In this document: positions 20,533 through 52,515 of the stretch, one piece after another
Layout of the letters: each line of letters opens with the position of its first letter
Position numbering within the stretch: the stretch's first letter is position 1
NCBI RefSeq assembly: GCF_003003775.1
Contig: NZ_PVWJ01000015.1
Coordinates: 1-57,095 of the forward strand
Reading direction: 5' to 3'
Origin: Merismopedia glauca CCAP 1448/3
GTDB taxonomy: Bacteria > Cyanobacteriota > Cyanobacteriia > Cyanobacteriales > CCAP-1448
Length of the DNA stretch: 57,095 nt
Program-made: the position numbers and the translations under genes
Notes under the pieces: model-generated
Told to the model about the DNA's origin: nothing
The model's input: the letters and a program-made list of their open reading frames with translations, nothing else
The model's database searches: none

Positions 20533-20545
20533 CTCCCCCTGTTTT

Positions 20546-32131: not shown

Positions 32132-33457
32132 TTATTCCTTTTGGATTCCATAGCAGAAACGAGCTATCAGTGGCGGATTTTTTGTCATTAGCTCGTTAGA
32201 AATGGTACTTAAACCTTGCAAAAATGTCGATAAACCGCGAGTTTTAGCACCGTTTTCTTTTCTGTCTGTTTCTGAATTCCAATTCCAATCATTCCACTGC
32301 GATTCGGGATTATCTAAACCCTTAGCAAAGACATCAACAGTAAATTTGTATATTCCTGAATTAGCTAATTCTTGCGCCTTTATTTGATTGCTAAACTCTA
32401 ATTTGTTACTAGATACTTTCCAATCTTTGAATGTCATTAAAGACTTAGTAGTATCTTCTCTAAATTCTTTTCTATCAAAAACCTCAGTATTAATTTTAGG
32501 TTCAATTTGTTCGGGATCTAGCTTGACTGTATGGTTAGCTAGAGGAAGATCTACTTGATAGTTTAACCTTAATTCTGAAGGCGCTTTTTTGAAAATTTTC
32601 AGCATTTGCACTTCAGAGTTACCTTGCAAAACTACTTTACCATTATTCAGAGACTTGAGAATTCTAAATTCTTGAGGATTATTATCTTTAGGTTCGTTCA
32701 AATAAACTATATTATTAGATACTTGCTGGGGCAAAAATAGAGATATTTGGCTATTTTTAGTTAAATTGTTGCCATTTTTTTGCAGCTTTTCCAGATAGCT
32801 AGATACAGATTTCTGAGAACCAATTAAGATTATATAAAAGGGTCTGAGTTTTTGGGTACTGCGATCGTAATTAAAGAAAATATTGGGGTTAGATGGATTA
32901 TATACTTTGCCGTTAAATTCACTTCTAATCCCGATTATGGCTACTGCGTTACCGAGAGTATTTACATTTATGTATTTGCTCTGAATTTCTTTGGTAACGT
33001 TTGTGGTATCTTCGCCATCTTGTTCTAAATCTGTCACTAAAACTAGCAGTTGTTCCGCATCTTTTTGAGATCTTATTTCGCCAGCTAAATCGCTACTTAC
33101 ACCAGGAAACTTAGGATCTGTTCCATTATAAAAAACTGGTTTCTGGGCTTGTTGAAATTGCGATCTGCTCAGTTTATTTTTAATGCCAAACCGATAATAT
33201 CCCGCGTTAGAAGTTAGAGAAAAAGTATTATCGAGTAGCTTGAGTGTTTCAACATAACTGCTATTAGGATTGCTGACATATCCCAGCATTGAACCCGAAC
33301 CATCTATATGAATAGCGACATTAGTATTAGATAGATTAGGACTCGATTCATTTCCTGGGGATGGAGGGTTGCAGGTAAAGAGAACTTTTTTAGGACTACA
33401 AGAAATTAGAAATAACGAGAGAGATACTGTCAAACTTAGCCATCTGAGTTTATTCAT
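32132..33457 (-). CDS. vWA-domain lipoprotein divergent from the tubulin/Hsp70-like cluster
   Basis: ATG 33457 gives 441 residues beginning MNKLRWLSLTVSLSLFLISC, a lipoprotein signal with lipobox LISC. Residues about 45-210 form a von Willebrand A domain: VAIHIDGSGSMLGYV is the MIDAS (DXSXS) metal site, and LLVLVTDLEQDG supplies the later acidic loop. The C-terminal half is beta-rich and unrecognised. It would be held on the periplasmic face of a membrane and bind a protein partner through Mg/Ca. The divergent promoter region shared with the membrane/tubulin-like operon suggests a common role. An upstream ATG at 33472 would add five residues. Confidence 0.75.
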   Translation of the reverse strand: MNKLRWLSLTVSLSLFLISCSPKKVLFTCNPPSPGNESSPNLSNTNVAIHIDGSGSMLGYVSNPNSSYVETLKLLDNTFSLTSNAGYYRFGIKNKLSRSQFQQAQKPVFYNGTDPKFPGVSSDLAGEIRSQKDAEQLLVLVTDLEQDGEDTTNVTKEIQSKYINVNTLGNAVAIIGIRSEFNGKVYNPSNPNIFFNYDRSTQKLRPFYIILIGSQKSVSSYLEKLQKNGNNLTKNSQISLFLPQQVSNNIVYLNEPKDNNPQEFRILKSLNNGKVVLQGNSEVQMLKIFKKAPSELRLNYQVDLPLANHTVKLDPEQIEPKINTEVFDRKEFREDTTKSLMTFKDWKVSSNKLEFSNQIKAQELANSGIYKFTVDVFAKGLDNPESQWNDWNWNSETDRKENGAKTRGLSTFLQGLSTISNELMTKNPPLIARFCYGIQKE

Positions 33458-33763
33458 ACTAGAGTGGCACATTTCGGCTGATTATTACTACAAAATTATA
33501 TATAGCCGATCGATTCTCAAGTCAAGCGATCGCTGATTAACTTTGGTTTAGTTCTGTGTACTTATCAGTTATTGTAAATCAATATTAATTATATTCACGA
33601 ATATAGCTACAAATAGTGACAAATAACGTAGCAAGTGGTATTTTAAGAGAAATAATTGCATCGGCATATGTTCTTATAGGTTCAAGCTTGACCTTACGGG
33701 CTTGCTATTGAATCGCGATTATAGCATCGCCAACTCGGAAAGTAATTATCAGGAAAAAAAAAG
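33458..33763. promoter_or_regulatory. Divergent promoter region of the tubulin/Hsp70-like cluster
   Basis: This 306-bp gap separates the vWA lipoprotein (-) from the cluster (+). It contains the near-palindrome GGTTCAAGCTTGACC (33679-33693), which could be a repressor site, and AT-rich stretches at 33560-33640. No coding signal is visible. Promoter boxes cannot be fixed by eye. Confidence 0.4.
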
Positions 33764-34243
33764 ATGAAAGCAGGCGAAATCATTCGCGTCATTGTTTTCT
33801 ATTTAATCGGCGCTATTTTAGTTTTTGTAGGGCAACCACTTCTATATCGTAATGGAATTATCGCTGTCAATGACGTACCAGAAGTCGAAACTTGGGTTAG
33901 CGATTATTATACGCCAGCAGCCGCAATAGTGTTTGGCATCTGCTTGCTCGCTACCATAATTTGGTTGGTTATAACTGCTATTTCTAAAGCAGATCTGGCT
34001 GAAGATATAGAAAAGTCAAGATTGTGGTGGTGGTTAATTGGGTTGCTACCAGTAATTAGTATCTGTGCGGCTATAGCTTTGTATAAAGAAGGAAGCGGTG
34101 AAGCACAATTGTCATTAGCTGTACTTTTCGTCTTAGATTTCCTCTGGTTATATTGGTTGACTACTGCTAGCAGTACCCCAGGATTATTCATGTTTATTCC
34201 GCCATTGGCAAGGCAACTGCGCGGCATGATAGGAGCGATATAA
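33764..34243 (+). CDS. Small membrane protein, first gene of the cluster
   Basis: The 159-residue protein has four hydrophobic helices (about residues 6-25, 44-68, 86-106 and 113-135), separated by short polar loops, and a short basic tail (PPLARQLRGMIGAI). There is no signal peptide cleavage site. No family is recognised. The stop codon overlaps the start of the tubulin-like gene (TAATG at 34241-34245), with AGGAG just before it, so the two are translationally coupled. It is a likely membrane partner for the tubulin-like protein. Confidence 0.7.
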   Translation: MKAGEIIRVIVFYLIGAILVFVGQPLLYRNGIIAVNDVPEVETWVSDYYTPAAAIVFGICLLATIIWLVITAISKADLAEDIEKSRLWWWLIGLLPVISICAAIALYKEGSGEAQLSLAVLFVLDFLWLYWLTTASSTPGLFMFIPPLARQLRGMIGAI

Positions 34244-35730
34244 TGGGAGTCTATTTAATTGGAGTTGGTGGTAGCGGGGCTAAATGCATTGAAGGTGTAA
34301 TTCAATTAGCCGCAGTGGGTTTGTTTACTGAAGAACCAATTAAAGTTTTATTTGTCGATGCCGATGAAACTAATGGTAACCTAGAACGTTCTCGTAACAG
34401 TCTGAAAACCTATCAAAGATGTTACGAATTGACGGCGGAAGGAGATAAACAAGAATGCCCTTGGATGAAGACTAAAATTGAATCTTTCGATTTATGGTCG
34501 CCCTTTGCCGAACAGAGCTTGAATAAAACTATCAAAACATTTTTCCAGTATAATACTATCAAGCAAAATCAACCAGCTTTAGGCAACTTATTCGATGTTT
34601 TGTATACTAAAGAAGAGCAAGATGCCGAGTTAGATGTTGGGTTTCGCGGCAGACCAGCTATAGGTTCAGCCGTGATGAGCCAAGTAGATTTAAACAGGTT
34701 AGAGCAAGAACCCTGGGGCAGTTTCATCAAGCAGATTCAGGCAGATACAGGTAGTGGAAAAATCCCAAAGATCCTGCTCTGCGGTTCAATTTTTGGTGGC
34801 ACGGGAGCATCGGGATTGCCCACAATTGCTCGTCTGATTGCTAATAAATTAAATGCCGTCAACGTGCGCGCTCGCGTGCAAATTGGTTGCCTTTTCTTAT
34901 TACCATACTTTGGCTTTGCAGCACCTCCAGGAGAAGATCCAGATGGAGTTTATGCCCGTTCAGAACAGTTTTTACTGAACACCGAAGCTGCATTACGTTA
35001 CTACCTTACCCAAGGCAAAGAAATCTTCGATACAGTCTATCTGCTGGGTAGTCAAAACCTATCGCGAGTCAACTTCAGTATCGGCAAAAATAGCCAACGC
35101 AATGAACCTCACTTTGTAGAACTCTATGGGGCGCTAGCTGTGAGGCATTTCCTCTTCCAACCTCCTTCAGAACCAGGTACAGTTGTCTTAGTGAGTCGAG
35201 AGAGTATTGGCAGGCTAACTTGGAATGACCTTCCAGATCGAGAGCAAGTCAAAGCAGATTTGATTAATGCTGCCAGATTTGCTTTTAGCTGGCTGTCGGG
35301 AATCGCCCCCGAATTAGAGAAGGCTAAAACTCAAGGTTTCGGCAGATTTGGCAACCTAGCTCCTTGGTTAACCAAATTTTACAGTAACGGTCGCGGAAAT
35401 CTACCTGATTTTAACGATCCTAACCAGCAAAATGCTATTGCGATCGTGAGCTACTGGTGTAAAGGTTTTCTGTGGTGGCTCTATTACTTGCATCAAGCAG
35501 AAGGAGAGGTAGTCGAGCTATTTAACGTTAAAGCTTGGGAAAACCTAAATGGAGAGCTAAAAGGCGAAGAATTGCCAAATTTAGCCATTAGAGACAACCG
35601 CGATCGCACCAGACAATCTCAAGACACCCCCGCTAGACTCAAAAATAACCTCGATCCCAAACGCCTCAAAGCCCCCAACCAAGGCACGATTGGACTTGCT
35701 AGAGCCTTGTACATCCTCTGTCGTCTTTAG
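34243..35730 (+). CDS. Tubulin/FtsZ-like GTPase (Tubulin_2-type)
   Basis: The 495-residue protein starts MGVYLIGVGGSGAKCIEGV, a Rossmann-type first loop as in the tubulin/FtsZ superfamily. It carries CGSIFGGTGASGLPTIARL at about residues 180-198; GGTGASG corresponds to the GGGTG[S/T]G phosphate-binding signature. Between them KVLFVDADETN matches the conserved second strand. The remainder is helical and divergent, as in the distant bacterial tubulin-like families reported near membrane-associated gene sets (FtsZl/Tubulin_2 groups). GTP binding and polymerisation are inferred from homology only. The gene is coupled to the membrane protein upstream and followed by an Hsp70/actin-fold ATPase. Confidence 0.75.
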   Translation: MGVYLIGVGGSGAKCIEGVIQLAAVGLFTEEPIKVLFVDADETNGNLERSRNSLKTYQRCYELTAEGDKQECPWMKTKIESFDLWSPFAEQSLNKTIKTFFQYNTIKQNQPALGNLFDVLYTKEEQDAELDVGFRGRPAIGSAVMSQVDLNRLEQEPWGSFIKQIQADTGSGKIPKILLCGSIFGGTGASGLPTIARLIANKLNAVNVRARVQIGCLFLLPYFGFAAPPGEDPDGVYARSEQFLLNTEAALRYYLTQGKEIFDTVYLLGSQNLSRVNFSIGKNSQRNEPHFVELYGALAVRHFLFQPPSEPGTVVLVSRESIGRLTWNDLPDREQVKADLINAARFAFSWLSGIAPELEKAKTQGFGRFGNLAPWLTKFYSNGRGNLPDFNDPNQQNAIAIVSYWCKGFLWWLYYLHQAEGEVVELFNVKAWENLNGELKGEELPNLAIRDNRDRTRQSQDTPARLKNNLDPKRLKAPNQGTIGLARALYILCRL

Positions 35731-35734
35731 TTAA

Positions 35735-35757
35735 GGAAGAAGGAAGAAGGAAGAAGG
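35735..35757. repeat. GGAAGAA heptamer repeat
   Basis: Three tandem GGAAGAA units lie in the 61-bp gap between the tubulin-like and Hsp70-like genes. They are about 35-55 nt upstream of the next start codon, too far to serve directly as a ribosome-binding site. Confidence 0.65.
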
Positions 35758-35791
35758 GCTCAATCTCCCAAATACTTACTTATTACCGATC

Positions 35792-38700
35792 ATGACCATC
35801 CTCATCTTACCCAAGCTCAAGTCCGATAGCGACGTTAGACCTGCTGATGAATCTGGAAAATGGGATCTGCAACAAGCTAAAGCCTTTCAAGATGTTGCCT
35901 CTAGTTTAGATTATAAGGCTCCAGGGCAGGTCAAAAGCGTCAGTTCCGTCCCCACCATGTGGGCGCGTGCCCTATCGATGGAAATGGCGCTACACAACCC
36001 CTATTATCCCATTCGCCAGGAAATGATTCAACAATGGCAGGGAATGCTAGGTGCGATAGCTCTAGCAGAGGTGCGGGGATTTCCCCTCAAAGCTCAATTA
36101 GTCTGCTTGGGTAGCCTTAAAGATAAAGAGCCGTTTGCCCATTCTCTCTACGAACTTCTGCCAGATCCAGTCAATTCCCTGTATAGTTTAACCTCTCCTC
36201 CCAAACACGCTTGGGAAGACATTTATATCTTCCTCTGGCACGATAAAGCTGTTGGGATGAGTTCCCCCAGTACCTTAGTAGTTCCTGCTGAAGAAGGGAT
36301 ATGGACTAACTTACCTTGGTGGAACGATAAAACGGGTAAATTGGAATCTCCTCACCATCGTCTCAACAACACCGAAAGAGCTTTATTGTGGCGTTGGTTA
36401 GAAAATTTGCGGGATGAAGTTGGGAATAAAGAAAATAAATATCGAGGACAGAAACAAGCAATTAACACTATTGGCGGCTTAATTGAAGACTTTCGGCAAA
36501 GCTTGGGTAACTACCCCGAACAAATTCTAACTTTGAGCAATAACCCCCAATTCTTTCAAGTTCCTTTAAATCGAGGGGTACTTATTGCTCTCAACAAACC
36601 AGTCAAAGTCGAAGCGAAACCATCTTCTGTTAGGTTAATTAAAAGTCCAGAAAAAACTAACGTTCTCGATCTGTTAATTTTAGATCGGGAAATATCTACA
36701 GCTTGGAATGAATCGCCCCAAAATATCTGGGTTTATGGCAATCAAACTTTAGCATCTTTAAATATTGAAGCTCTCAAAAATAAAACTATTATTTGGGAGG
36801 GAGTCAGATGGATTGAATCGAAAGATTTATTCTTACCAGAATTCAAGTTTGTCGATTTAGAAGATGCTCTACCTGGTGCTTTTTTACCTCCAGGAATTCA
36901 GATTAATTTTAACGGACAGCGAGTTACCCCATTACTGCCCCTCAACCCAATTTTATTAGAGTATTTCACTTCAGAAGAATTAATTCGACACATTCAATTA
37001 AACCAGATTCAAAGTAGTGAAGGTTCTGTCTTAAGGTTCAGTTTAGATCTGCCACTTTCTGGGACAAATGGGACGCAGAATTATCGCATTTTCAAAGATT
37101 ACCAAATTAAAGAAGAAAACGCTTTACCAGAAGTTCCAGTCCTGGAAATATGGCCCCATTTTAGAGCAGAAGGTTGGCGCTCTTATTATGCATTTTACTA
37201 TGATGCTGAATTTGGAGACGAAACCTTCCAAGTCAATTTACCATCTGCAAGAGAACCTCATTTATTTAAAGATGGCAGAGGCTCTTATCAGATTACCAGA
37301 TTAGAAGAGTTTCCTTCATATATTAACTGCCAAGATCGCGATCGCCGAACTATCGGTTTGATTTTGCTCAGAACTCCCGAACTGAATAGATCTACTGGAA
37401 GTTGGCGAGTTGGAGTTGATTTCGGAACTTCCTTTACTAACATTTATGTGAATCGCAAAGGAGTTGTTGAGTCTCTCCCTTTACAGAGTTTGCATCTCAA
37501 AGTTACAGAAGTCCAAATAGATACTCGCAACCCTGTTTTATTTGAATACTTTGTCCCCGAAAGTTTTATTCCACCCGATAAACCATTACCTTTATCTAGC
37601 ATTCTGACAATTAGGGGAAATACTCATAGTCCTCAAGGAAAAGAACGTCCGATTTATGATGGGAGAATCTACGTTCCAGATCGGAATCGATTTAAGCCTC
37701 AAGAAGATTGGATCGAGACAGATTTGAAGTGGACAAACTTGGTGGCTAATCGCTTATTTCTACAGCATTTAGGCTTGCATATTTCGGCTTTGGCGGCTCA
37801 AAATAATGTCAAACAGGTACAATGGTGTTTATCTTATCCTTCAGCATTTTCTAATCGGGATCGCAAACTTTACGCTCAAAATTGGCAAGATTTAACTAAA
37901 GAATTACATGCACAAACCGGAATTACACATCTTTGTCCAGAAGTAGATGAACTAGACTATTTCCGCACTGAAAGTTTAGCTATTGCTCAATATTTTGCAG
38001 ATCGAGAAGGATACGATTTAGTTGGTAGTACCTGTATTGATATGGGTGGTGGAACTTCTGATATTTCCATTTGGGAAGATAATCAATTACTCCATCAATG
38101 TTCAGTGCAGTTAGCTGGAAGGGATTTATTTTCTCAGTTTCTCGAACTCAATCCTAAGTTTATTCAAAAGTTTGATGTTAAAGCCAATGAATTACAAGGG
38201 TTAAAAGAAGGTAATTTTAATGCCAAGCTGGACGTATTATTGCGGTTAGAAAGTGATAATTGGTTGAAGAAAATCGCCTTTTTGCAAGAAGATCCTGAAT
38301 TCCAAGGACTAATTAGATTGGTGGCGATCGGCACGGCTGGATTGTATTATTATGTAGGTACGATCTTGGGCGTTTTATCTAAAGAAGAAAAGTATCAGCG
38401 CAACGAAATTACTCCAGTTTATGTTGGTGGAAATGGCTCTAGGTTGCTGAATTGGTTGGATGTAAGAGGTAAATTTGATCGCAATTCTGAAATAAATGAA
38501 TTATTCAGCCGGATGCTGAGTAAAGGATCGGATTTTGAAGATACGGAAGAAAAAACTCGCTTGAGTCAACAACCTAAAGATGAGGTGGCTTGCGGTTTGG
38601 TTTTGAGCGATACTAAGTTACAGGGACTCAAGAAAAAAGCGAAAGATCCCTTGATTGCTGGAGAAAATTGCGAACTCAACAATGAGCTAATTAACTATCA

Positions 38701-39022
38701 AGATAGGTTGGAATTTGATGGCGAAATTAAAAACTTTAAAATCTCTCGCGATTTAGAACAGTTAAAGAGATTTTTATACGAGTTTAATTTGGGTTTAAGA
38801 GACTTAGAAATAGAAGGGATTACTCCCATGCCAGGTTTTAGACCAAAAGTCGGCTTAGAATCTAGCTATGACAGTCAACTTTGGCGAAATACTCTGAGAG
38901 AATTGGATAATACTTTGCTCAAAATTAAGGGCAATTCCGAAAATATTCGGGTAGAGCCTCCCTTTATTTTAGCCCTAAAGGCACTGTTACGGGTGTTAGG
39001 GAAGGAATGGGCGGGTAAGTGA
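35792..39022 (+). CDS. Large Hsp70/actin-fold ATPase with novel N-terminal region
   Basis: The 1076-residue protein has an actin/Hsp70-type ATPase in its C-terminal half: phosphate-1 WRVGVDFGTSFTNIYVN (about residues 538-554), phosphate-2 CIDMGGGTSDISIWE (about 748-762), and adenosine-type VYVGGNGSRLLNWL (about 875-888). All key residues (Asp of DFGT, GGGT) are present, so it should bind and hydrolyse ATP. About 535 N-terminal residues are unrecognised and contain beta-rich stretches (LDLLILDREISTAW; WEGVRWIESKDLF) that recur in the paralogue at 43642-46686. No signal peptide or membrane helix is seen. It sits directly behind the tubulin-like gene and is probably in the same operon. Confidence 0.8.
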   Translation: MTILILPKLKSDSDVRPADESGKWDLQQAKAFQDVASSLDYKAPGQVKSVSSVPTMWARALSMEMALHNPYYPIRQEMIQQWQGMLGAIALAEVRGFPLKAQLVCLGSLKDKEPFAHSLYELLPDPVNSLYSLTSPPKHAWEDIYIFLWHDKAVGMSSPSTLVVPAEEGIWTNLPWWNDKTGKLESPHHRLNNTERALLWRWLENLRDEVGNKENKYRGQKQAINTIGGLIEDFRQSLGNYPEQILTLSNNPQFFQVPLNRGVLIALNKPVKVEAKPSSVRLIKSPEKTNVLDLLILDREISTAWNESPQNIWVYGNQTLASLNIEALKNKTIIWEGVRWIESKDLFLPEFKFVDLEDALPGAFLPPGIQINFNGQRVTPLLPLNPILLEYFTSEELIRHIQLNQIQSSEGSVLRFSLDLPLSGTNGTQNYRIFKDYQIKEENALPEVPVLEIWPHFRAEGWRSYYAFYYDAEFGDETFQVNLPSAREPHLFKDGRGSYQITRLEEFPSYINCQDRDRRTIGLILLRTPELNRSTGSWRVGVDFGTSFTNIYVNRKGVVESLPLQSLHLKVTEVQIDTRNPVLFEYFVPESFIPPDKPLPLSSILTIRGNTHSPQGKERPIYDGRIYVPDRNRFKPQEDWIETDLKWTNLVANRLFLQHLGLHISALAAQNNVKQVQWCLSYPSAFSNRDRKLYAQNWQDLTKELHAQTGITHLCPEVDELDYFRTESLAIAQYFADREGYDLVGSTCIDMGGGTSDISIWEDNQLLHQCSVQLAGRDLFSQFLELNPKFIQKFDVKANELQGLKEGNFNAKLDVLLRLESDNWLKKIAFLQEDPEFQGLIRLVAIGTAGLYYYVGTILGVLSKEEKYQRNEITPVYVGGNGSRLLNWLDVRGKFDRNSEINELFSRMLSKGSDFEDTEEKTRLSQQPKDEVACGLVLSDTKLQGLKKKAKDPLIAGENCELNNELINYQDRLEFDGEIKNFKISRDLEQLKRFLYEFNLGLRDLEIEGITPMPGFRPKVGLESSYDSQLWRNTLRELDNTLLKIKGNSENIRVEPPFILALKALLRVLGKEWAGK

Positions 39023-39025
39023 TAG

Positions 39026-39088
39026 GAGAGCCTTCAGATTGAAATCTGAGGCTATACAAGCTAAGTCCGCCTGCGCGGACTTTTGAAG
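39026..39088. repeat. Short dispersed repeat with two hairpins
   Basis: CAGATTGAAATCTG and GTCCGCCTGCGCGGAC hairpins flank GGCTATACAAGCTAA. A decayed version (CAGATTGAAGTCTG...GGCTATACAAACTAAGTC) follows the second Hsp70-like gene at 46710-46745. The repeat belongs to the family seen at 20398 and 23971. Confidence 0.7.
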
Positions 39089-39152
39089 GGTGTTAGGTTG
39101 GGTAGAGTCAGCCAAACTCAACCTATCTAGCAAAATGGGGAAGGTAGCGCGT

Positions 39153-40358
39153 ATGGCAAAATGTCCGGTTTGTAATACTGAATATACTCAAGGACAAGAC
39201 GAATTGTGTCCAAAATGCCGTCTACCGTTTGAATTGTATTCCCTGCTTTACGAGAGAGATAAAATATTAGCAGAAAGGTGGATAACTTGGGCTAGAGGGT
39301 TATTTCACAGCAAATTAAACAACTTCGGAATTTTAACTCCATCTTATCCTCAAACAACGTCCCCTGAGATTCAACCTGAGTTCTTGGCAACAATAACTCA
39401 AGCTGTAAATCGCCAAAAAGAGATCGATCGGCGAGTTCGACATTTAGAAGAGCTTGAGAAAGAACGGGAGAATAAACAGTATCAAATTGATTTAGAGCGC
39501 TCAAGAATGATATCTGATGTCAAAACCGAGGTGAACCGCCAAATCGACAAGGAGAGAGCCAATTTACACTTTCAAATCTCTCAACTAGAAGAGCAGTTAA
39601 GAAAGGAAAAACAAGAGCGATCGCATTTCCAATCTCACATATCTAATTTAGCAGCAGAATTCACCCCTAGACTATCAAATCTCGAAACTCAGTTAGACCA
39701 AGATAGAAAAGAGCGATCGCATTTCCCATCTCAGATCTCTCAATTACAACAAAATGTATCCCAAACTTTTAGCAACTATGAAACTTGGTGTCAAAACACT
39801 AATCAATCTATCAATTCTTTGACTACTAAGGTAGGAGAAATTCAAACTAACGTCGCACAACTTCAAGAGTATTCCCGAAATAACCAACGGCTAAATAGTG
39901 TAACTCAAATTAATGCACCTACCCCTACATCTAGATCCACAACACCAATAGAATCTAGTCAAGTTAACGTAAGTCAAGCTTTAAGCTTGGACGAATCCAA
40001 CTTAGTTAGTAAATACAATAATAATCCTAACATTTTTACCAACAAAATCGAAGTTTCAGAAACTAAAGAAAGTAACGATAACCGTCGTGGTGGAAGTAAC
40101 CAATCGCCAATTTTAGAAACATCTCGTCGTGCTAACTACTGGATTATTAGTGAATCCGGTTTTTACTACTTAGTTCCCAGTCCAAATTTGAAACTGAATG
40201 AATTTAATTATAAAACTGTGGAAGCCTTTTTCAAATGCCATAATTACGGAGAAAACTCTTCTCGAAACGTGCGACTTTTCAAACCCGCTCAAGTATCTGC
40301 TTTACCAGGAGGAGAAAAATGGGAACTGATCCAACCTGGCGTGATTCAGTTTGAGTAA
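39153..40358 (+). CDS. Zinc-ribbon, coiled-coil protein with one copy of the cluster's ~115-residue domain
   Basis: I chose ATG 39153 (401 residues; MAKCPVC), with AAGGT upstream; earlier starts lie in repeat sequence. Residues 4-22 form a Cys4 zinc ribbon (CPVC...CPKC). Residues about 85-255 are coiled coil (heptads rich in Glu, Gln, Arg, Leu). The C-terminal ~117 residues form the recurrent domain: LVSKYNNNPNIF, ANYWIISESGFYYLVP, LNEFNYKTVEAFF, LFKPAQV, WELIQPGVIQFE. The last ~210 codons are almost identical to the middle of the gene at 41956-43572. It is cytoplasmic, with no signal or membrane segment. The role is probably scaffold or adaptor. Confidence 0.7.
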   Translation: MAKCPVCNTEYTQGQDELCPKCRLPFELYSLLYERDKILAERWITWARGLFHSKLNNFGILTPSYPQTTSPEIQPEFLATITQAVNRQKEIDRRVRHLEELEKERENKQYQIDLERSRMISDVKTEVNRQIDKERANLHFQISQLEEQLRKEKQERSHFQSHISNLAAEFTPRLSNLETQLDQDRKERSHFPSQISQLQQNVSQTFSNYETWCQNTNQSINSLTTKVGEIQTNVAQLQEYSRNNQRLNSVTQINAPTPTSRSTTPIESSQVNVSQALSLDESNLVSKYNNNPNIFTNKIEVSETKESNDNRRGGSNQSPILETSRRANYWIISESGFYYLVPSPNLKLNEFNYKTVEAFFKCHNYGENSSRNVRLFKPAQVSALPGGEKWELIQPGVIQFE

Positions 40359-40380
40359 ATTACATAATAAGCGAGGGATT

Positions 40381-41856: not shown

Positions 41857-41955
41857 GTTTATAGCACTAAACAGATAATAATATGTTTGAGGAATGTCAA
41901 AACCTGGAGTTAATGTAAAAATCCGAAGCGATCGCTATGTAACTAGCTAATTTAT

Positions 41956-43572: not shown

Positions 43573-43641
43573 TTGCATGAGAATGTTCTTGATGATTTTA
43601 CAATTCAGAAAAACAAAAAAAGCCCAAAAAATTGCATAAAT

Positions 43642-46600
43642 ATGGATACAGAAAATAATCAGCAACATACTAACAACCCGCAGACTTCAAATACAAATTT
43701 TACTGAAGATGAACTGCTGGAAATATACAATCGTATTCCAAGACTTTTAGCCAACAATATCATTAAAGTTTCAGTATTAGAAGTAAAACAAGCACTGAAT
43801 TATAATTACCAAGTTTTATTGGTAGAAGAAAGAAATGGAAACTATTGGGTAATAAATACAAAATCGACAGAAGATGAAACTTACTGGCTCGTACCTAAAG
43901 GCTCTTTCAGAATTAATCAGCATAATATCAATACTATCAAGTCCTTATTTGAATGTTTGGAATTTAAACTGGAGCAAACTAGAGAGTTTATCCTGAAAAA
44001 ACCTGCTAAAATCTCTCGTTTACCTAACCAAGATCAATGGAGTCTACAAGCGAAAGGAATACTAGATTTTGGTAATAGGTCTTCATCAGAGTTGGAACTG
44101 AAAAAAAACAAGCGCGATCGCCTACAATCTCAGATAGAAGAATTGATTCAAGAACGCGATCGCCTCGCATCTCAATTAGCACAAACTGGTTCAGATCGCC
44201 TCACTAAAGTTGAAAAACCAACAGAAGATATAAAGGAAGACAAAGCGGATAAGTTGCAACAGGAAAAACAAGAGCGATCGCACGTCCGATTAATCCCTAG
44301 TCCTGAAAAAAATAATACAATAGATCTCCTAATTATCGATAGTGGTATTGCGACTACTTGGAAGGAATCGCCTGAAAATATCCGAGTCTATGACAACCAA
44401 ACTCTAGCATCTTTAAATGTTGAGGAATTCAAGAGTCAAAAAATTGTCTGGGAGGGGATAAGATTAATTGAATCAAAAGATTTATTCTTGCCAGAATTCA
44501 AATTTATCGATCTAGAAGATGCCTTGCCAGGGGCTTTTTTACCTCCTAACATTGAAATTAATTTTATCGGACAACGGATTACTCCTTTACTCCCACTTAA
44601 CCCAATTTTATTAGAGTATTTCACGTCAGAAGAACTAATTAAACGCATCCAAATAACTCCTATTCAAAAAAGTTCTCTGTTACGAGTTAGTTTAGATCTG
44701 CCACTGTCTGGAGTTAATAATAGCAACCAATCGCAGATTTATTGCATCTTCAAAGATTACCAAATTAAAGAAGAAAATGCTTTACCCGAAGTTCCAGTAT
44801 TAGAAATTTGGCCCCATTTTCAAGCCGAAGGGTGGCGATCTTATTATGCATTTTACTACGATGCTGAGTTTGGAGACGAAACATTTCAAGTGAGTTTACC
44901 ATCAGCTAGGGAACCCCATTTGTTCAAAGATGGCAGAGAATCTTTTCAAATTAGTAGACTCGAAGAATTTCCATCATACATCAACTGCCAAGATCGCGAT
45001 CGCCAAACTATTGGTTTGATTTTACTCAGAAGTCCAAAAGTTACTATATTAAAGGACTATTGGAAAGTTGGTGTTCATTTCAGTACATCTTTTACTAACG
45101 TTTATGTGAATCGAAAAGGTATAGTTGAATCGTTACCTCTAGAAAGCTTGCATCTGAAAGTTACAGAAGTCGGAACAGAAACCCGTATCCCCGTTTTATT
45201 TGAATATTTTGTTCCTGAAAATTTTATACCACTAGATAAACCATTACCCCTATCTAACGTTCTGACAACGAGGGGAAATAGTCACAGTCCCCAAGGAAAA
45301 GAACGCCCAATTTATGATGGTAGAATTTACTTCCCAGATCGCAATCGATTTAAACCCCAAGAAGACTGGCTTGAGACAGATTTGAGTTTTAAAAACTTCG
45401 TTGCTCATCGATTGTTTTTACAGCATTTAGGCTTGCACATCTCGGCTTTGGCAGCTAAAAATAACGTTAGGGAAGTGCAATGGTGTTTATCTTATCTTTC
45501 AAATGCCTCCAAGCGCGATCGCAAACTGTACGCCCAAAACTGGCAGAATATAACTAAGGAATTACAAACCCAAACAGGAATAACCCATCGCTGTCCTGAA
45601 GTAGATGAATTAGAATACTTCCGTACTGAAAGTTTGGCGATCGCTCAATATTTTGCCGATAGGGAAGGGTATAATTTAGTCAATAGCACCTGTATCGATC
45701 TGGGTGGTGAAACTTCCGATATTTCAATTTGGGAAAATAACCAACTCCTACATCAATGTTCTGTTCAGTTAGCGGGAAGAGATTTATTTTCTCAATTTCT
45801 AGAACTCAATCCTAAGTTCATTCAAAAGTTTGATGTCAAAGTTAATGAATTACAAAAATTAAAGGAAGGTAACTTCAATGCAAAATTAGATGTACTGCTG
45901 CGTTTAGAAAGTCAAAATTGGTTAGAGAAAATAGTTTTTCTGCAAGACGATGTGGAATTTCAAGGATTGATTCGATTAGTGGCGATCGGCACTGCTGGGT
46001 TGTATTACTACCTTGGTATAATATTGAAGACTTTGCACCAAGAAAGAAAATATCAACATCAAAAAATTACCTCGGTTTATGTTGGTGGATATAATTCTAG
46101 TGTACTGAATTGGCTAGATGAAAGAGGTAAATTTGATCGCAATTCCGAAATCAATCAGTTATTCAGTCGGATGCTGAGTAAAGGATCTGGTTTTGAAAAT
46201 ACAGACGAAATCACTAGGTTAAGTTCCAACCCAGGAGATGAGATAGCCTGTGGATTGGTACTAACTAATACTAAGTTAAGAATGGCGACAACTATAGCAA
46301 AAGATCCTTTAATTGCTGGGGAAAATTGTGAACTGAACGGACAAAATATTACCAGTCAAGGAAGATTAGAGTTTGACGGAGAAATTAAAGACTTCCGAAT
46401 CTCTCGCGAACTAGAACATTTAAAGCGGTTTTTATACGAGTTCAATCTGGGTTTAAGAGAGTTAGATATGGAAGGAATTAAACCTATGTCTGGATTTAGA
46501 CCAGGTACGGGTTTAGAATCTAGTTATGACAGTCAACTTTGGCGCAATACTTTGAGAGAATTGGATAATACCTTGCTCAAAATTAAGGGTGATTCCGAAA

Positions 46601-46686
46601 ATATTCGGGTAGAGCCTCCCTTTATTTTAGCTTTGAAGGCATTACTGCGGGTTTTGGGTAAGGAATGGGCAGGAAAAAAAGAATAA
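43642..46686 (+). CDS. Hsp70/actin-fold paralogue with degenerate nucleotide-binding motifs
   Basis: I chose ATG 43642 (1014 residues); an upstream TTG at 43573 is less likely. The N-terminal ~145 residues are the recurrent cluster domain (LLEIYNRIPRLL...GNYWVINT...LKKPAKISRLP), then a coiled coil. From about residue 213 it is collinear with the 35792 protein at high identity. However, the phosphate-1 motif reads VGVHFSTSFTN (DFGTS changed to HFSTS) and phosphate-2 reads DLGGETSDIS (GGGT changed to GGET). The catalytic Asp and two glycines that contact phosphates are therefore lost, while VYVGGYNSS is mostly kept. It is probably a non-hydrolysing partner of the active ATPase. Confidence 0.8.
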   Translation: MDTENNQQHTNNPQTSNTNFTEDELLEIYNRIPRLLANNIIKVSVLEVKQALNYNYQVLLVEERNGNYWVINTKSTEDETYWLVPKGSFRINQHNINTIKSLFECLEFKLEQTREFILKKPAKISRLPNQDQWSLQAKGILDFGNRSSSELELKKNKRDRLQSQIEELIQERDRLASQLAQTGSDRLTKVEKPTEDIKEDKADKLQQEKQERSHVRLIPSPEKNNTIDLLIIDSGIATTWKESPENIRVYDNQTLASLNVEEFKSQKIVWEGIRLIESKDLFLPEFKFIDLEDALPGAFLPPNIEINFIGQRITPLLPLNPILLEYFTSEELIKRIQITPIQKSSLLRVSLDLPLSGVNNSNQSQIYCIFKDYQIKEENALPEVPVLEIWPHFQAEGWRSYYAFYYDAEFGDETFQVSLPSAREPHLFKDGRESFQISRLEEFPSYINCQDRDRQTIGLILLRSPKVTILKDYWKVGVHFSTSFTNVYVNRKGIVESLPLESLHLKVTEVGTETRIPVLFEYFVPENFIPLDKPLPLSNVLTTRGNSHSPQGKERPIYDGRIYFPDRNRFKPQEDWLETDLSFKNFVAHRLFLQHLGLHISALAAKNNVREVQWCLSYLSNASKRDRKLYAQNWQNITKELQTQTGITHRCPEVDELEYFRTESLAIAQYFADREGYNLVNSTCIDLGGETSDISIWENNQLLHQCSVQLAGRDLFSQFLELNPKFIQKFDVKVNELQKLKEGNFNAKLDVLLRLESQNWLEKIVFLQDDVEFQGLIRLVAIGTAGLYYYLGIILKTLHQERKYQHQKITSVYVGGYNSSVLNWLDERGKFDRNSEINQLFSRMLSKGSGFENTDEITRLSSNPGDEIACGLVLTNTKLRMATTIAKDPLIAGENCELNGQNITSQGRLEFDGEIKDFRISRELEHLKRFLYEFNLGLRELDMEGIKPMSGFRPGTGLESSYDSQLWRNTLRELDNTLLKIKGDSENIRVEPPFILALKALLRVLGKEWAGKKE

Positions 46687-46697
46687 TTAAAATTCAC

Positions 46698-46862
46698 CCA
46701 AAATTGCCATCAGATTGAAGTCTGTGGCTATACAAACTAAGTCACCTACGCTAAAATTTCAGGACGTTACAGATTGGGTTTCACTTGCTACAATCAAAGA
46801 AAATAGCGATTGCTACAAACAGCTTCTATATTTGAATAGATAAATCTGGAAATAAATTAGTT
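46698..46862. other. Intergenic gap with decayed dispersed repeat
   Basis: This gap begins with the decayed copy of the repeat found after the first Hsp70-like gene (CAGATTGAAGTCTG, GGCTATACAAACTAAGTC). The remainder up to the next GTG start is AT-rich with no clear signal. Confidence 0.55.
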
Positions 46863-47750
46863 GTGGAAGAAAACACGAATATTGCTCAGCAAAACACACC
46901 TGATGCAAGTACAGAAAATCTGTTAGATGCGAGGATTCAAACGCTAGAATCCAAATTAACTCAACTGGAATCTCAACAAAATTCCTTCAACTTTGTTCCT
47001 ATTTTCTTAGCTGCTATTATAGGTGCTATTTTAGGTTCAATCTTCACCGCAGTAATTTTCCGTCAGCTATTATCTGGGAATAATCGCTCCAAAAAAGGTA
47101 GATTAGCGGCTGAACAAACTCAACCAAATCAAGAAGTAGAATCTCAAACCACACAATATTTAACTGCTACTGTCAATCATCTTTCTACCAAATTCAAAAC
47201 CATTTCTGAACAAGTTAAAAATCTAGAAAGTCAGTTATCAGATTTTGAGGTTGGATCGAGAAGTAGCAGTCAAAGTATATCTAATACCCTTCAATCTTCT
47301 GAGACAAATTTAGAACAAACTACACCATCATATTTGAGTGAAAGTAGATCGGAAACAGCAACAAAAAATGATTATAGTATTTCTCTAACCCCTAAACTGG
47401 TAGATATTTACAATCGCGATCGCAATGCTCTATCCTACAAAGGTATAGAAGTCGCAGAAACTGAAGAAAGCAGCAATAATCGTCGCCTTAGTGAGACTAA
47501 AGTAGTAATTTTTGAAAATAAGCGTCAGGGAAATTATCGGATAGTTAAAGAAAAAGGCATTAATTATCTAATTCCCCAGCCAAATTTCCAAATCGATGCA
47601 TCTAACTATTCAGAAATTCAAGCTGTATTTGAATGTCAGAATTATTCAGCCAACTATTCTAATTTTCAATTGGTTCAACCAGCTACCGTTTTACCCATTT
47701 CTGGCGGACTCAATTGGTGTTTAGAAGAAAGAGGAATATTGAAATTTTAG
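46863..47750 (+). CDS. Membrane-anchored protein with one cluster domain
   Basis: The 295-residue product starts at GTG 46863. A coiled coil is followed by one transmembrane helix at about 41-66 (FVPIFLAAIIGAILGSIFTAVIF). This helix shares GAILGSI with the helix of the 40381 protein. A second coiled coil (residues 95-135) and a Ser/Thr-rich linker lead to the recurrent domain (about 178-295: LVDIYNRDRNALSY...GNYRIVKE...NYSEIQAVFECQNY...EERGILKF). The N-terminus probably faces the periplasm and the domain the cytoplasm. It looks like a shortened version of the 40381 protein without the peptidoglycan-binding-like part. Confidence 0.65.
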   Translation: MEENTNIAQQNTPDASTENLLDARIQTLESKLTQLESQQNSFNFVPIFLAAIIGAILGSIFTAVIFRQLLSGNNRSKKGRLAAEQTQPNQEVESQTTQYLTATVNHLSTKFKTISEQVKNLESQLSDFEVGSRSSSQSISNTLQSSETNLEQTTPSYLSESRSETATKNDYSISLTPKLVDIYNRDRNALSYKGIEVAETEESSNNRRLSETKVVIFENKRQGNYRIVKEKGINYLIPQPNFQIDASNYSEIQAVFECQNYSANYSNFQLVQPATVLPISGGLNWCLEERGILKF

Positions 47751-47817
47751 GCAAACTAAAATAGTTGTTAATAATAAGTAAATAATTGATTTTGAGTAAT
47801 ACTCAATCATCAAGATT

Positions 47818-48630
47818 ATGAAAAACTCTGAGAATAACTTGGAAAATCTAAATCAAGAAATTATTCGCCTCAGAAAGCGATTGGATAACATAGAAAGCTC
47901 ATTAGCTTTCCCAGAATCGAGACAACTCAACAAAGCCTTGGAAATACCTAAAGTTAGCAAAATTAAATTATCAGAAGGCAAACTAGTTGAAGTTTTTAAT
48001 GATGTGCCACAGTTGTTATCTGCATATGCAACTTCTGTTTCTTTAACAGCTTCCAGCTATCGGCAAATTAACCAAATGCCAATAGTGTTAGAGAATGCTA
48101 ATTGGGGTAATTATTGGGTTATTGCCACAGAAGATGATTATTGGCTTTTACCAAACATAAAACTGAAGCTGAATATCCATAAACTTAAGACAATTAAATA
48201 TTTGTTCAAGTTAGAAAAAAAATCATCTGCCAATACCGATGAATACTCTCTAATTAAACCAGCTAAAGTTTCTCTAATGCCAAATGGATGTGAGTGGAAA
48301 CTAGAAGCATCAGGAAAAATAGAATTTGGCAGTTACAGAGAATTTCAATGGCGATCTGAACTAGAAATAATTGACTTACAAAGCCAAAAACTTCAGTCTT
48401 TATTAGAACAAGCAGATCGACAAAGCCAGGAACTTCAATCCCAAATCGATCGCATACCAGAAGAACGTTCTCTCCTCATTTCTCAGCTATCAGAATCACT
48501 TAATAATTGGCGCAAAAACCTAACTTCTCAACTGGATCTAGATTCACCACAATTAGAGACATCTGAACCTGTTAATGCAGCTATCAAAAAGTTTATGAAC
48601 TTCACCCGCACCTTGAGGGACAAATTTTAA
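47818..48630 (+). CDS. Coiled-coil protein with one cluster domain
   Basis: The 270-residue soluble protein has an N-terminal coiled coil (NLNQEIIRLRKRLDNIESS), the recurrent domain at about 57-172 (LVEVFNDVPQLLSAYATSVSLTASSYRQ...GNYWVIATEDDYWLLP...KPAKVSLMP...WKLEASGKIEFG), and a C-terminal coiled coil (LQSLLEQADRQSQELQSQID). The domain variant with SYRQ and NIHK-TIK-LF is shared with the first domain of the 49911 protein, marking a subfamily. It lies at the end of the first run of cluster genes, before a minus-strand Rpn-type gene. Confidence 0.65.
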   Translation: MKNSENNLENLNQEIIRLRKRLDNIESSLAFPESRQLNKALEIPKVSKIKLSEGKLVEVFNDVPQLLSAYATSVSLTASSYRQINQMPIVLENANWGNYWVIATEDDYWLLPNIKLKLNIHKLKTIKYLFKLEKKSSANTDEYSLIKPAKVSLMPNGCEWKLEASGKIEFGSYREFQWRSELEIIDLQSQKLQSLLEQADRQSQELQSQIDRIPEERSLLISQLSESLNNWRKNLTSQLDLDSPQLETSEPVNAAIKKFMNFTRTLRDKF

Positions 48631-48661
48631 TTTTAAGAGGTCAAAACCCCAGCTAGTACAT

Positions 48662-48690
48662 GAAGTCAGAAGTCAGAAGTCAGAAGTCAA
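48662..48690. repeat. GAAGTCA heptamer repeat
   Basis: Four tandem units of GAAGTCA occur here, another 7-bp-period array. It sits in the gap between the cluster and the Rpn-type gene. Confidence 0.75.
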
Positions 48691-48804
48691 AATCTTCGAT
48701 CTATGAGTTTTTGAGCTTTTTTGAACTGACTGGTTATTCATGCCTTGCTGCACTAGATCGTCTCAACTTCAGTCAATTATATTGGTCAAACAGGCGATCG
48801 CACT

Positions 48805-49815
48805 TCAGTTTGAACGATAAATATGACGCAACTCATCCAGTGTATTAACTGTTTTCATTCTCCTTTGAATTGCTCTTAATTGCTCCATATCTTCTATCTG
48901 GGAAATTTCTGGTAACAAACTTAAACCCATAGAGCCGAATTTTAACTCTAAATTCACTTCAATGCTTTCTAATAGCACTTGCTTCATCTCAGCTTTGCTT
49001 TGCTCGATTCCTTGCTCGATTCCTTGCTCAATTCCTTGTTCAATTCCTTGTTCAATTCCTTTTTGGATTGCTCTTCTCTCAAAATTACTAATATATGGCA
49101 TTTTCTGCGCCTCCTCGTATTGGTTTAACTCCCGTTCAAACTGCTGTTGCAACTCTTCAGATAAAGTCATCATCCAATCAATAAACTTAAAAAGATTGAT
49201 AATATCTTGCCTTTCGTAACCTTGCTCGTATAACCTTTTACTCAGATTCAGTTTCCACTGTTTGCGCTCATTTCTATCAGTCCGAGTTTCCAGCGCTTTT
49301 AAATGTGCCATCACCACTGTAGCAAAAGGATTTCGGCTAACTTCTAGTTCTGACCACCTCTGATTGTAGTCTAGCAATTTCACTATCGGGAACTGAAACC
49401 TAACTTCACAACCAAATAGTTGATAGCCAAATTGATTAGGTCGCCAATTTGAACGTTCGTCTCCTAAGACAGCTAGAGAAGCCACAGAACGCTGATAACG
49501 GTCATAAATACGGTAGTTGTAGACAAACATCCGTTCGGCAAAATTACTTTCCTCCTGGCTTTGGACTTCCACATGGATCAAAACCCAAGCTTCTTCGCCA
49601 TCAAGACGATAAATCTTAACTAGCTTATCAACCAATCTTCGTCCTAGTTCCGCATCTCGTACCACTTGTTGTAGTTCGTTGTCTAAAAACTCAAATCCTC
49701 GACTCCAATCGATTTCTACATAAGCTTCTGGAAAAAAGAATAGAATAAAGTCGGCAAAATATTGCTGTAAAATATCTTTCCAAGGCGTATCAAACTCGGT
49801 TTGCGGTTCATTCAT
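48805..49815 (-). CDS. Rpn/PD-(D/E)XK-type nuclease-family protein
   Basis: The 336-residue protein starts FDTPWKDILQQYFADFILFFFPEAYVEIDW and continues with RRLVDKLVKIYRLDGEEAWVLIHVEVQSQEESNFAERMFVYNYRIYDRY in pieces. LVKIY and LIHVEVQ provide the catalytic D/E-x-K-like core of the PD-(D/E)XK fold used by Rpn (recombination-promoting nuclease) and related putative transposases. Residues about 254-273 are tandem GIEQ repeats (five units, 12-bp period). The C-terminal 50 residues are typical of this cyanobacterial group. The gene lies against the direction of the surrounding cluster, suggesting insertion. Confidence 0.75.
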   Translation of the reverse strand: MNEPQTEFDTPWKDILQQYFADFILFFFPEAYVEIDWSRGFEFLDNELQQVVRDAELGRRLVDKLVKIYRLDGEEAWVLIHVEVQSQEESNFAERMFVYNYRIYDRYQRSVASLAVLGDERSNWRPNQFGYQLFGCEVRFQFPIVKLLDYNQRWSELEVSRNPFATVVMAHLKALETRTDRNERKQWKLNLSKRLYEQGYERQDIINLFKFIDWMMTLSEELQQQFERELNQYEEAQKMPYISNFERRAIQKGIEQGIEQGIEQGIEQGIEQSKAEMKQVLLESIEVNLELKFGSMGLSLLPEISQIEDMEQLRAIQRRMKTVNTLDELRHIYRSN

Positions 49816-49910
49816 GAAAGAATAATTTGATAGTCTAGACTATTGCCTTAATTTTACCTTAAAATAGATTCAATACCGGAGTTAGTAATAGTTTTTTACT
49901 TTTCAAAAAT

Positions 49911-52031
49911 ATGACTGAACGCGAGCCAGATCTTACAGAAATTATTAAAGAATTTTCTTCTTTACAAGAGCGCGTATCAAAATTAGAAAATAATGGCAAA
50001 ACTGAAAGTTTTAGCCAAAAAGATGTCAAAATAAATGGCAATGTGGAAGTTGTTCAAGCCACCCGAATCGACTTATCTGAACTTAAGTTATTGGAACTAT
50101 ATCATGACTGTCCGCAAATATTAGAAATTATAGCTATTAGAGTTAACTTAACTGCGGATAGCTATCGTCAAACAAGTGAAGAGAAAATATTTTTAGAAAA
50201 AGTTGCTAACGGTAATTATTGGGTTATGGCTGCCCAGAATGATGATTACTGGCTATTTCCTCATATCAAGCTTAGCCTGAATATTCATAAAGTCAAGACG
50301 ATTAAACAGTTATTCAACTGTTCTGGAGAAGCAAAAAAAGACTTTATTGTCACCAAAGCAGCTAAAGTTTCTTTAATGCCTAGCGGACAAGAGTGGAAGT
50401 TAGAAAAGAAAGGAGATCTAGAATTTACAGATTCTCCATTCGTGAAACAACAATCAGAAATAGAAAAAGTAGATCGAAAATATAGAAAGCTTGAAGGTGA
50501 AGTAGTCAAAGCAAATCGCCAACAACATTTACTCGAATTAAAGCTAGAAAAAGCTTTGGAATTACTCAAGAAGTATGGATTGGAAATCAAGAATCTTAAA
50601 AGTCAAGTTTACGATCTGAAAAAAAATTTAGAATATCAATTTGCTACAGGTACAAAACAGCAACAATTAGTCTCGATATATAATAAAAATCCTCAAACTT
50701 TATCAAATCAAATAATACTAGTTTCCGAGACTTCTAATAGTATCAATCAGCGCCATATCGGAAATAGTAAACAAGTTGAGTTTGTGAATAATATTAATGG
50801 GATATATTGGATAATTAGCGTAGAAGATGAACATTACCTAGTTCACGATAAAAGTCAATTTCAGATTAATGAACATAACTTGAAAACGGTAGAAGCTATG
50901 TTTAAATATAGTCACTATCAAGCTGGAAAGTCTCAAGAAATAGAGTTAATTAAACCAGCTAGAGTATGTTCTATCGGCGAAAATATGTGGAGACTGTTAG
51001 AAAAAGGAGTTTTCAAGTTTAAAAATGATGATTTGGAAGTGCAAATAACAGAAGAAATAGATGATTTAGACTGGGAAGAAATAGATAAAATTGAAATTTT
51101 AGAAATTAGAGAGGAAGTGGAACAACAGGAAGAAACCCTTCCTCAAGTACAATTGATACGTACTCTGACTGGACATACCAAAGCGGTGCGATCGCTCGCC
51201 ATTAGTCGCTGGGAAGCAGATAACCACAAGCAAATCCTAGCTAGTGGAAGTTTTGACCAAACTATCAAGCTATGGGAACTCAAGAGTGGAGAACAGATCG
51301 GAACTCTGACAGCAGGAGAAATGGTAAATGCTCTAGCACTCACGCTTGATGGTAAAACCCTAGTAGCTAACAGCAGACAGGATTCCCTCGAAGTCTGGAA
51401 CTTATACAATGCCAAGCGTACCACTATTGGAGAACATACAGACTGGATTTTTAGCCTGGTTCTTAGCTTAGATGGTGAAATTATCGCCAGTGGTTCTCGC
51501 GATGAAACCATCAAGATTTGGGATCTGGAAACTCAGGAACTGGTACAAACCCTCACTGGTAATTGTCAAGGCGCACTAGCCATTGCGATCGCCCCCGATA
51601 ATCATACCCTAGTTAGTAGTTGCGGTGACAAAGCCATTAGAATTTGGAACCTGGAAACTGGCGCTTTAATTGCCACCTACTGTCAACCAGAGTTAATTTG
51701 GAGTCTTGTCATTACTCCAGATGGCAAAACCTTGATTTGCGGGAGTCGCGATCGCACTATCTCCCTATTAGATCTCAATACAGGGGCAGTAAAATCTACC
51801 CTGATGGGTCATACTGAACCAGTATGGTGTCTGGCGATCGCACCCGACGGGAAGACATTAGCTAGTGGTAGTGGCGATCGCACCATTAAGTTATGGAATC
51901 TCAATCGTGGCGAATTAATTACCACTTTAAACGAGCATACAGATGAAGTCTACACGCTGGCGATCGCTTCAGATAGCAAAACCCTAGTCAGTGGTAGTCG
52001 AGACAATACCATCAAGATTTGGCAACTCTAA
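49911..52031 (+). CDS. Two cluster domains fused to a seven-bladed WD40 propeller
   Basis: The 706-residue protein has a short N-terminal coiled coil, domain copy 1 (about 59-173: LLELYHDCPQIL...SYRQ...GNYWVMAAQNDDYWLFP), a coiled coil (180-245), and domain copy 2 (253-373: LVSIYNKNPQTL...GIYWIISVEDEHYLVH). A very acidic linker (about 376-408) follows, then seven WD40 blades (LTGHTKAVRSLAISRW...TIKLWELKSGE; last ITTLNEHTDEVYTLAIASD...IKIWQL). Several blades have degenerate GH or WD dipeptides. It combines the cluster domain with a protein-interaction propeller and closes the cluster, after the Rpn-type insertion. No signal or membrane segment is present. Confidence 0.75.
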   Translation: MTEREPDLTEIIKEFSSLQERVSKLENNGKTESFSQKDVKINGNVEVVQATRIDLSELKLLELYHDCPQILEIIAIRVNLTADSYRQTSEEKIFLEKVANGNYWVMAAQNDDYWLFPHIKLSLNIHKVKTIKQLFNCSGEAKKDFIVTKAAKVSLMPSGQEWKLEKKGDLEFTDSPFVKQQSEIEKVDRKYRKLEGEVVKANRQQHLLELKLEKALELLKKYGLEIKNLKSQVYDLKKNLEYQFATGTKQQQLVSIYNKNPQTLSNQIILVSETSNSINQRHIGNSKQVEFVNNINGIYWIISVEDEHYLVHDKSQFQINEHNLKTVEAMFKYSHYQAGKSQEIELIKPARVCSIGENMWRLLEKGVFKFKNDDLEVQITEEIDDLDWEEIDKIEILEIREEVEQQEETLPQVQLIRTLTGHTKAVRSLAISRWEADNHKQILASGSFDQTIKLWELKSGEQIGTLTAGEMVNALALTLDGKTLVANSRQDSLEVWNLYNAKRTTIGEHTDWIFSLVLSLDGEIIASGSRDETIKIWDLETQELVQTLTGNCQGALAIAIAPDNHTLVSSCGDKAIRIWNLETGALIATYCQPELIWSLVITPDGKTLICGSRDRTISLLDLNTGAVKSTLMGHTEPVWCLAIAPDGKTLASGSGDRTIKLWNLNRGELITTLNEHTDEVYTLAIASDSKTLVSGSRDNTIKIWQL

Positions 52032-52485: not shown

Positions 52486-52515
52486 TAGGTTGGGTTGACG
52501 ATAGTCAACCCAATA
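52486..52515. repeat. TTGGGTTGAC inverted repeat
   Basis: TTGGGTTGAC (52490-52499) and GTCAACCCAA (52504-52513) form a perfect 10-bp hairpin with a GATA loop in the rtcB leader. It belongs to the dispersed family seen at 14266 and 30485. Confidence 0.65.

Follow-up and report, generated by a model that had tools for sequence, protein, structure and literature searches.

Positions 32132-52031 of a 57,095-nucleotide window from the cyanobacterium Merismopedia glauca CCAP 1448/3 (the whole stretch analysed, on contig 15, NZ_PVWJ01000015.1, of a 5.2-Mb draft genome) carry a gene cluster in which a tubulin-like protein is paired with an ATPase of the actin/Hsp70 superfamily. The cluster consists of a divergently transcribed vWA lipoprotein gene and ten plus-strand genes, with one minus-strand open reading frame (ORF) lying among them. 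All the genes named by a first-pass annotation, made from the DNA letters without database searches, are ORFs at the coordinates given below, and the overlap of the first two is confirmed as a single shared base (34243); most of the remaining intergenic gaps are short. Sequence searches place its relatives among cyanobacteria. Single-sequence scans gave almost nothing: the WD40 propeller is nearly the sole match above curated cut-offs in family scans of the cluster proteins, and a PADLOC scan of the window proteins returned coiled-coil or WD40 matches only, with no component of a described anti-phage system matched. The identities therefore rest on alignments, structure and context.

The divergent gene (32132-33472, minus strand) encodes a lipoprotein of 446 amino acids (aa) with a lipobox (LISC), a MIDAS motif (DGSGS) and a [TS]D motif. 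Since a Pfam scan of this single sequence gives no match, the vWA assignment rests on motifs. The lipobox and a D/E-x-S-x-S motif are kept in most of 52 aligned vWA lipoproteins from the two phyla in which the arrangement is found; the MIDAS is mostly D-x-[ST]-x-S in cyanobacteria and mostly E-x-S-x-S in Bacteroidota, and the [TS]D motif occurs in nearly all. The earlier call of a vWA lipoprotein is thus upheld by its orthologues. The plus-strand run opens with a 159-aa protein (33764-34243) that has four hydrophobic windows, here the four-transmembrane (4-TM) protein, the orthologues of which also precede the tubulin gene.

The tubulin-like protein (34243-35730, plus strand; 495 aa) has an N-terminal GGxG loop and an FGGTGASG loop, conserved as GGxG and FGGTGA[SA]G among 22 aligned homologues. 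Its match to Tubulin_2 (PF13809) is sub-threshold (E 1.7e-4, 21.4 bits versus a cut-off of 27), as is that of a Prevotella homologue (Tubulin_2 7.7e-5; Tubulin 6.7e-4). Comparison of the family profile with FtsZ alone is too shallow (Prob 11%) and, for this reason, the structure was predicted. The AlphaFold model (pLDDT 81, pTM 0.86; 39 sequences in the alignment) is matched by VIA-align to CetZ1 (Z 16.7), FtsZ (Z 16.5) and tubulin (Z 16.2), with superpositions of rmsd about 3.1-3.5 across about 190-213 residues that span mostly residues 1-318 or 1-347 and barely cover the last ~150 residues. The best Foldseek match of the model is FtsZ (E 4.9e-4). On the modelled fold and the presence of the GTP-binding loops, the product is assigned to the FtsZ/tubulin superfamily, in line with the first-pass call.

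A narrower placement among the FtsZl families, which the first pass had cited as known examples, does not hold. In the region of the GTP loop, the profile of the window family resembles that of FtsZl1 (E 2.4e-7), which makes the protein a relative, while its length, domain make-up and score rule out membership. FtsZl1 proteins are about 1,000 aa in length with a central coiled coil and a helical C-terminus, an architecture not shared by the 495-aa protein, the orthologues of which are similar to it in length. The same genome encodes a canonical FtsZ separately, as well as a classical FtsZl1 (Tubulin_2) of 1,093 aa (G000:C120:3654-4712). Of 30 relatives, over half have classical FtsZl1 genes, which score 319-381 bits; among the homologues of the window protein, that of genome G302 just clears the Tubulin_2 cut-off at 29.1 bits.

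The partner of the tubulin-like protein is a 1076-aa ATPase (copy A; 35792-39022, plus strand) with a long N-terminal region. The phosphate-1 (DFGTS), connect-1, phosphate-2 (DMGGGTSD) and adenosine (GGNGS) motifs are all present, in order, and are shared by all aligned first-copy orthologues. On these motifs, copy A is classed as a member of the actin/Hsp70 (ASKHA) superfamily. Against the PDB, the family profile matches FtsA (9.7e-5) and MreB (2e-4) ahead of mitochondrial Hsp70 and DnaK-type chains (0.8), although the FtsA match is confined to one motif. The label 'actin/Hsp70 superfamily' is, therefore, safer than 'Hsp70'. The original description of an active and a degenerate Hsp70-like protein stands as to the superfamily motifs of copy A and their decay in a second copy (copy B, below).

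The arrangement of these genes is beyond chance, as two phyla repeat the same order. In cyanobacteria the vWA lipoprotein, 4-TM, tubulin (~500 aa) and ATPase (~1,080 aa) genes follow one another as in the window, a set here termed the cassette. The tubulin gene is found in 21 of 292 sampled cyanobacteria (about 7%) and is absent from G292, the only same-family relative searched; in Gloeothece verrucosa PCC 7822 (plasmid Cy782204), Picosynechococcus sp. PCC 7003 (plasmid NZ_CP016476.1) and [Synechococcus] sp. NIES-970 the cassette is plasmid-borne. In a GTDB-wide scan 431 relatives emerged, and the best 80, which were kept, are almost all from Bacteroidota. Of 395 genomes drawn from that phylum, 16 have a match to the tubulin; in three of these the match lies in an ORF of 1,622-1,688 aa, and two of the three ORFs are confirmed fusions. 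In many Bacteroidota the set is an operon of six genes, in the order vWA, transmembrane (TM), tubulin, ATPase, a coiled-coil protein that has a conserved domain at its C-terminus and often a signal peptide and TM segment, and a zinc-ribbon protein. By profiles, vWA, TM, tubulin and ATPase genes are all present at 18 of 28 loci in cyanobacteria and at 65 of 92 in Bacteroidota, and many of the other loci are truncated by the end of a contig.

The strongest evidence that the tubulin and ATPase act as a unit is their natural occurrence as a single chain. At loci L211 (8159-13219) and L212 (8097-13142), both are encoded as one polypeptide (1,686 and 1,681 aa, respectively) that gives profile matches for both halves, and the fusion gene is followed by motor-like genes and by that of a lipoprotein in which one region is vWA-like. 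Based on the operons of two phyla and on these fusions, the tubulin-fold and actin/Hsp70-superfamily proteins form a paired core. The first-pass proposal of a single system, one part of which binds GTP and another ATP, is strongly supported by the same observations, and the core of the gene set that it singled out is indeed adjacent and ordered in other genomes. The two great families of polymer-forming proteins are those with a tubulin fold and those with an actin fold; their coupling in a compact accessory cassette, even within one polypeptide, makes joint control by GTP and ATP testable.

The remainder of the window cluster is marked by a repeated domain of ~115 aa. Ten copies are detected, spread over seven proteins and confined to 39.9-51.1 kb, with none elsewhere in this genome. 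The carriers, all on the plus strand, are (i) a zinc-ribbon and coiled-coil protein (39090-40358; domain at 39993-40355), (ii) a protein with a signal peptide, periplasmic region, TM segment, coiled coil and predicted cytoplasmic domain (40351-41856, likely start 40381; domain at 41497-41853), (iii) a protein of three such domains (41956-43572; 41971-42336, 42799-43158 and 43210-43569), (iv) copy B of the ATPase (43573-46686; 43705-44088), (v) a TM and coiled-coil protein (46863-47750; 47391-47747), (vi) a coiled-coil protein (47818-48630; 47974-48339), and (vii) a protein in which two domains (50073-50447 and 50658-51017) are fused to a WD40 propeller (49911-52031; Pfam WD40 3.9e-59). Three proteins of the first-pass annotation, namely the zinc-ribbon protein, the one with a signal peptide and TM segment and the second TM protein, each also end in the repeat domain, and an Rpn-like ORF interrupts the run in which they had been placed. 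The charge pattern of the TM proteins would put the domain in the cytoplasm.

The repeat domain follows the cassette. Among 46 genomes, 22 of the 23 that carry the cassette have it at E<1e-6, versus one of the 23 that do not (Fisher p 1.3e-10), and at E 1e-3 the latter count rises to three of 23 (p 1.2e-8). The sole cassette genome that lacks it, G042 (locus L031, 7554-12455), has a split ATPase gene, the two pieces of which are separated by an ORF, and its cassette may be decaying. Modelled from the copy at 41497-41853, the domain is a confident alpha+beta structure (pLDDT 93.9), for which neither the PDB (Foldseek best E 0.46; VIA best Z 2.3) nor a set of viral models (best E 0.43) offers a convincing match. 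It is possibly a new fold, the absence of a match falling short of proof, and an adaptor domain with a confident model and no detectable PDB relative is of interest in itself. Across genomes, the domain is carried by coiled-coil proteins, TM proteins, copy B and the front of terminal proteins, the C-termini of which vary: WD40 in the window, G157 and G207 (loci L281 and L258) and an FGE-sulfatase domain in G302 (E 1e-57). By appearance, a minus-strand gene elsewhere in the window (2851-4767) encodes a fusion of a protein kinase with an FGE-sulfatase-like domain, the module type seen in G302.

A small non-enzymatic domain that is spread over several genes of one system and enters variable fusions has the features of an effector-associated domain (EAD). 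WD40 domains are used in conflict systems. In Kaur et al. 2020 (PMC7159879), EADs are defined by such sharing between the genes of one system and FGS domains are listed among conflict-system effectors. The repeat domain resembles this pattern, and no match between it and a described EAD was found; the weak EAD9 matches returned by family scans lie outside it.

Copy B lacks the first ~275 residues of copy A and has a repeat domain and linker in their place. It has lost residues in the phosphate-1, phosphate-2 and adenosine motifs. The two copies are 78-82% identical over their common part, with dN 0.12 and dS 1.07, values by which copy B is judged to be retained as a protein-coding gene. By tree, truncated second ATPases have at least four independent origins: the window lineage, L032, L036 and once in Bacteroidota (L116 and L122). 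The ATP motifs have decayed in all three cyanobacterial second copies, each at different residues and each still protein-coding, whereas those of the Bacteroidota copies are intact. That a dead ATPase copy has arisen more than once amounts to a natural experiment on the causes of pseudo-enzyme evolution.

Attachment of the system to the envelope, another element of the first-pass proposal, is supported by the predicted features of the conserved lipoprotein, the 4-TM protein and the TM-bearing adaptor proteins. The anchoring to the wall that was proposed for the protein starting at 40381 has weak support: a sub-threshold PG_binding_1 match (E 0.0022) in one orthologue speaks for it, and four others have none.

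What the system does is read here, tentatively and at a probability of roughly 0.4, as a nucleoside triphosphate-driven sensor-adaptor function, most likely in conflict (anti-phage or anti-competitor) or in a response to envelope intrusion. The vWA lipoprotein would sense something at the periplasmic face and pass a signal through the 4-TM protein, upon which the tubulin/ATPase core may assemble under the control of GTP and ATP. The repeat domain could then act as an adaptor that recruits the coiled-coil proteins and variable modules by like-with-like contact, and these modules would recognise or act on the target. Copy B, as a pseudo-ATPase, might serve as a scaffold, cap or decoy of copy A. 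A more specific version, which we regard as rather doubtful, is an undescribed mobile, membrane-based immune system with a tubulin-actin switch, a new-fold adaptor bearing WD40 or FGE-sulfatase recognition modules, and pseudo-ATPases, evolved more than once, as scaffolds or decoys.

The patchy spread, plasmid carriage, exchangeable modules, ATPase duplications and certain neighbours of distant copies are counted in favour of a conflict function. At L211, L212 and L139, genes similar to ZorA and ZorB follow the ATPase (best 1.6e-9 and 1.9e-7). At L139, this pair is followed by a PDC-S14 match (a PADLOC candidate, 1.6e-24) and a DNA/RNA non-specific endonuclease (7e-48) at 16899-18401 and 18414-19340. 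Copies from IMG/VR (L137 and L138) adjoin phage terminase or tail-like genes, and a Prevotella copy is near McrBC genes. The Zorya-like pairs, phage genes, endonuclease and McrBC neighbours are hints of mobile, conflict-related biology.

Several observations pull the other way. The ZorA/B matches are weak and in part driven by coiled coils; the repeat domain is not detected by sequence in Bacteroidota; and no enzyme that could be recognised as killing or cutting appears among the matches listed for the scanned proteins of the window cluster. In Prevotellaceae, the operon is frequent and its flanks look partly shared, which also fits a resident function. The cassette flanks of cyanobacteria show no clear excess of defence families when 127 near-flank ORFs are compared with 127 taken from arbitrary parts of cassette-bearing genomes. 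The same generic models (PD-T4-6, PDC-S03 and mad) prevail in the two sets, so no enrichment is claimed; nine of the flank ORFs are of Uma2 type (without a Pfam control).

Described systems share ingredients with the cassette, and the FtsZl1/vWA operons and GAP1-N2 DO-GTPase systems, the closest in content, do not share its defining parts. FtsZl1/vWA operons likewise combine a divergent tubulin-superfamily GTPase with a vWA protein and membrane proteins, but their partners are a P-loop GTPase, kinases and OmpA proteins, whereas the ~495-aa cassette protein, below the Tubulin_2 cut-off, is partnered by an actin/Hsp70-superfamily ATPase. In the accessible text of PMC7159879, the GAP1-N2 systems have tubulin, vWA and HSP70 near the membrane, zinc ribbons and variable modules and, in the wider set, adaptor domains common to core and effector genes, as in the cassette. 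By that same text, they are defined by a DO-GTPase and GAP1, and their tubulin and HSP70 belong to separate, non-overlapping themes in other phyla; the adaptor of the cassette is a different domain. No P-loop GTPase or GAP1 appears at E up to 1 among the matches listed for the scanned cluster proteins (all but that at 47818-48630, and the best 25 matches each for the 41956 and WD40 proteins). If the conflict reading is true, the cassette would add cyanobacteria and Bacteroidota to the range of the vWA/tubulin/HSP70 systems that Kaur et al. predicted, in a version whose core is simpler. A likeness to Zorya exists in distant relatives, where a MotA/ZorA-like and a MotB/ZorB-like gene lie a short way past the ATPase gene, but the pair is absent from the window cluster and no ZorC, ZorD or ZorE is seen. 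CoCoNuT and TerY-P defence operons (PMC11090510) similarly have Hsp70-like domains, vWA, coiled coils and zinc ribbons; the cassette, by contrast, lacks McrB/McrC, HEPN, kinase and phosphatase, and tubulin is not mentioned for CoCoNuTs. A literature search, with preprint servers and most subscription papers outside its reach, found no description of this gene set.

Of the other functions considered, membrane remodelling or polarity survives best, though it is judged unlikely. The tubulin would form polymers at the inner membrane, tethered by the actin-like ATPase in the manner of FtsZ and FtsA, and shape membranes or place envelope complexes. The fold seen by VIA-align, FtsA as the best PDB profile match of the ATPase, the tubulin-ATPase fusion and the membrane proteins of the gene set all fit, and remodelling was proposed for the related FtsZl1/vWA operons by Makarova and Koonin 2010 (PMC2875224). 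As in the division pair, a tubulin-fold and an actin-fold protein would meet at the membrane. However, the FtsA match covers one motif only, the cassette ATPase is about 2.5 times longer than FtsA with a distinct N-terminal half, and the cells already have an FtsZ. It is also unusual for a function in shape or division to be distributed so sporadically, carried on plasmids and equipped with swappable WD40/FGS modules.

Improbable to a further degree is a role in envelope stress or in regulated transport or secretion, where the vWA lipoprotein would monitor envelope proteins or the state of the wall and the NTPases would drive a transport or repair complex. A reviewer of PMC2875224 favoured transport or signalling for the related operons, and the conserved periplasmic lipoprotein, the periplasm-spanning adaptor with its PG_binding_1 match in one orthologue and the Zorya-like motor partners of distant branches agree with it; the conserved set, however, contains no transporter or protease, and the wall-binding match is isolated. 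Chaperone-like proteostasis, with the Hsp70 relative and a tubulin-like scaffold handling misfolded proteins, is very hard to credit: the superfamily's nucleotide motifs and a second, DnaK-like gene after the distant L137 cassette (19981-20987, on a contig that also has a phage terminase and resolvase) would suit it, but the scanned cluster proteins have no substrate-binding domain, J-domain or GrpE and the ATPase profile is nearer to FtsA/MreB. That the genes are unrelated and neighbours by accident, for which nothing speaks beyond the variable genes and the inserted Rpn-like ORF, has virtually no chance of being right, as it is already contradicted by the order kept across two phyla, the fusions and the domain co-occurrence.

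The inserted ORF itself (48805-49815, minus strand), between the coiled-coil and WD40 genes, looks like an Rpn/PD-(D/E)XK transposase with an EQGI repeat and is probably not part of the system. The phosphatase-like and RtcB genes that flank the cluster are on different contigs in the nearest relatives (empty-site comparison). Homologues of RtcB that are 77% identical lie beside the cassette in the window (52495-53724) and in G151 (L039, 17317-18495, minus strand), on opposite sides of it, which may be chance.

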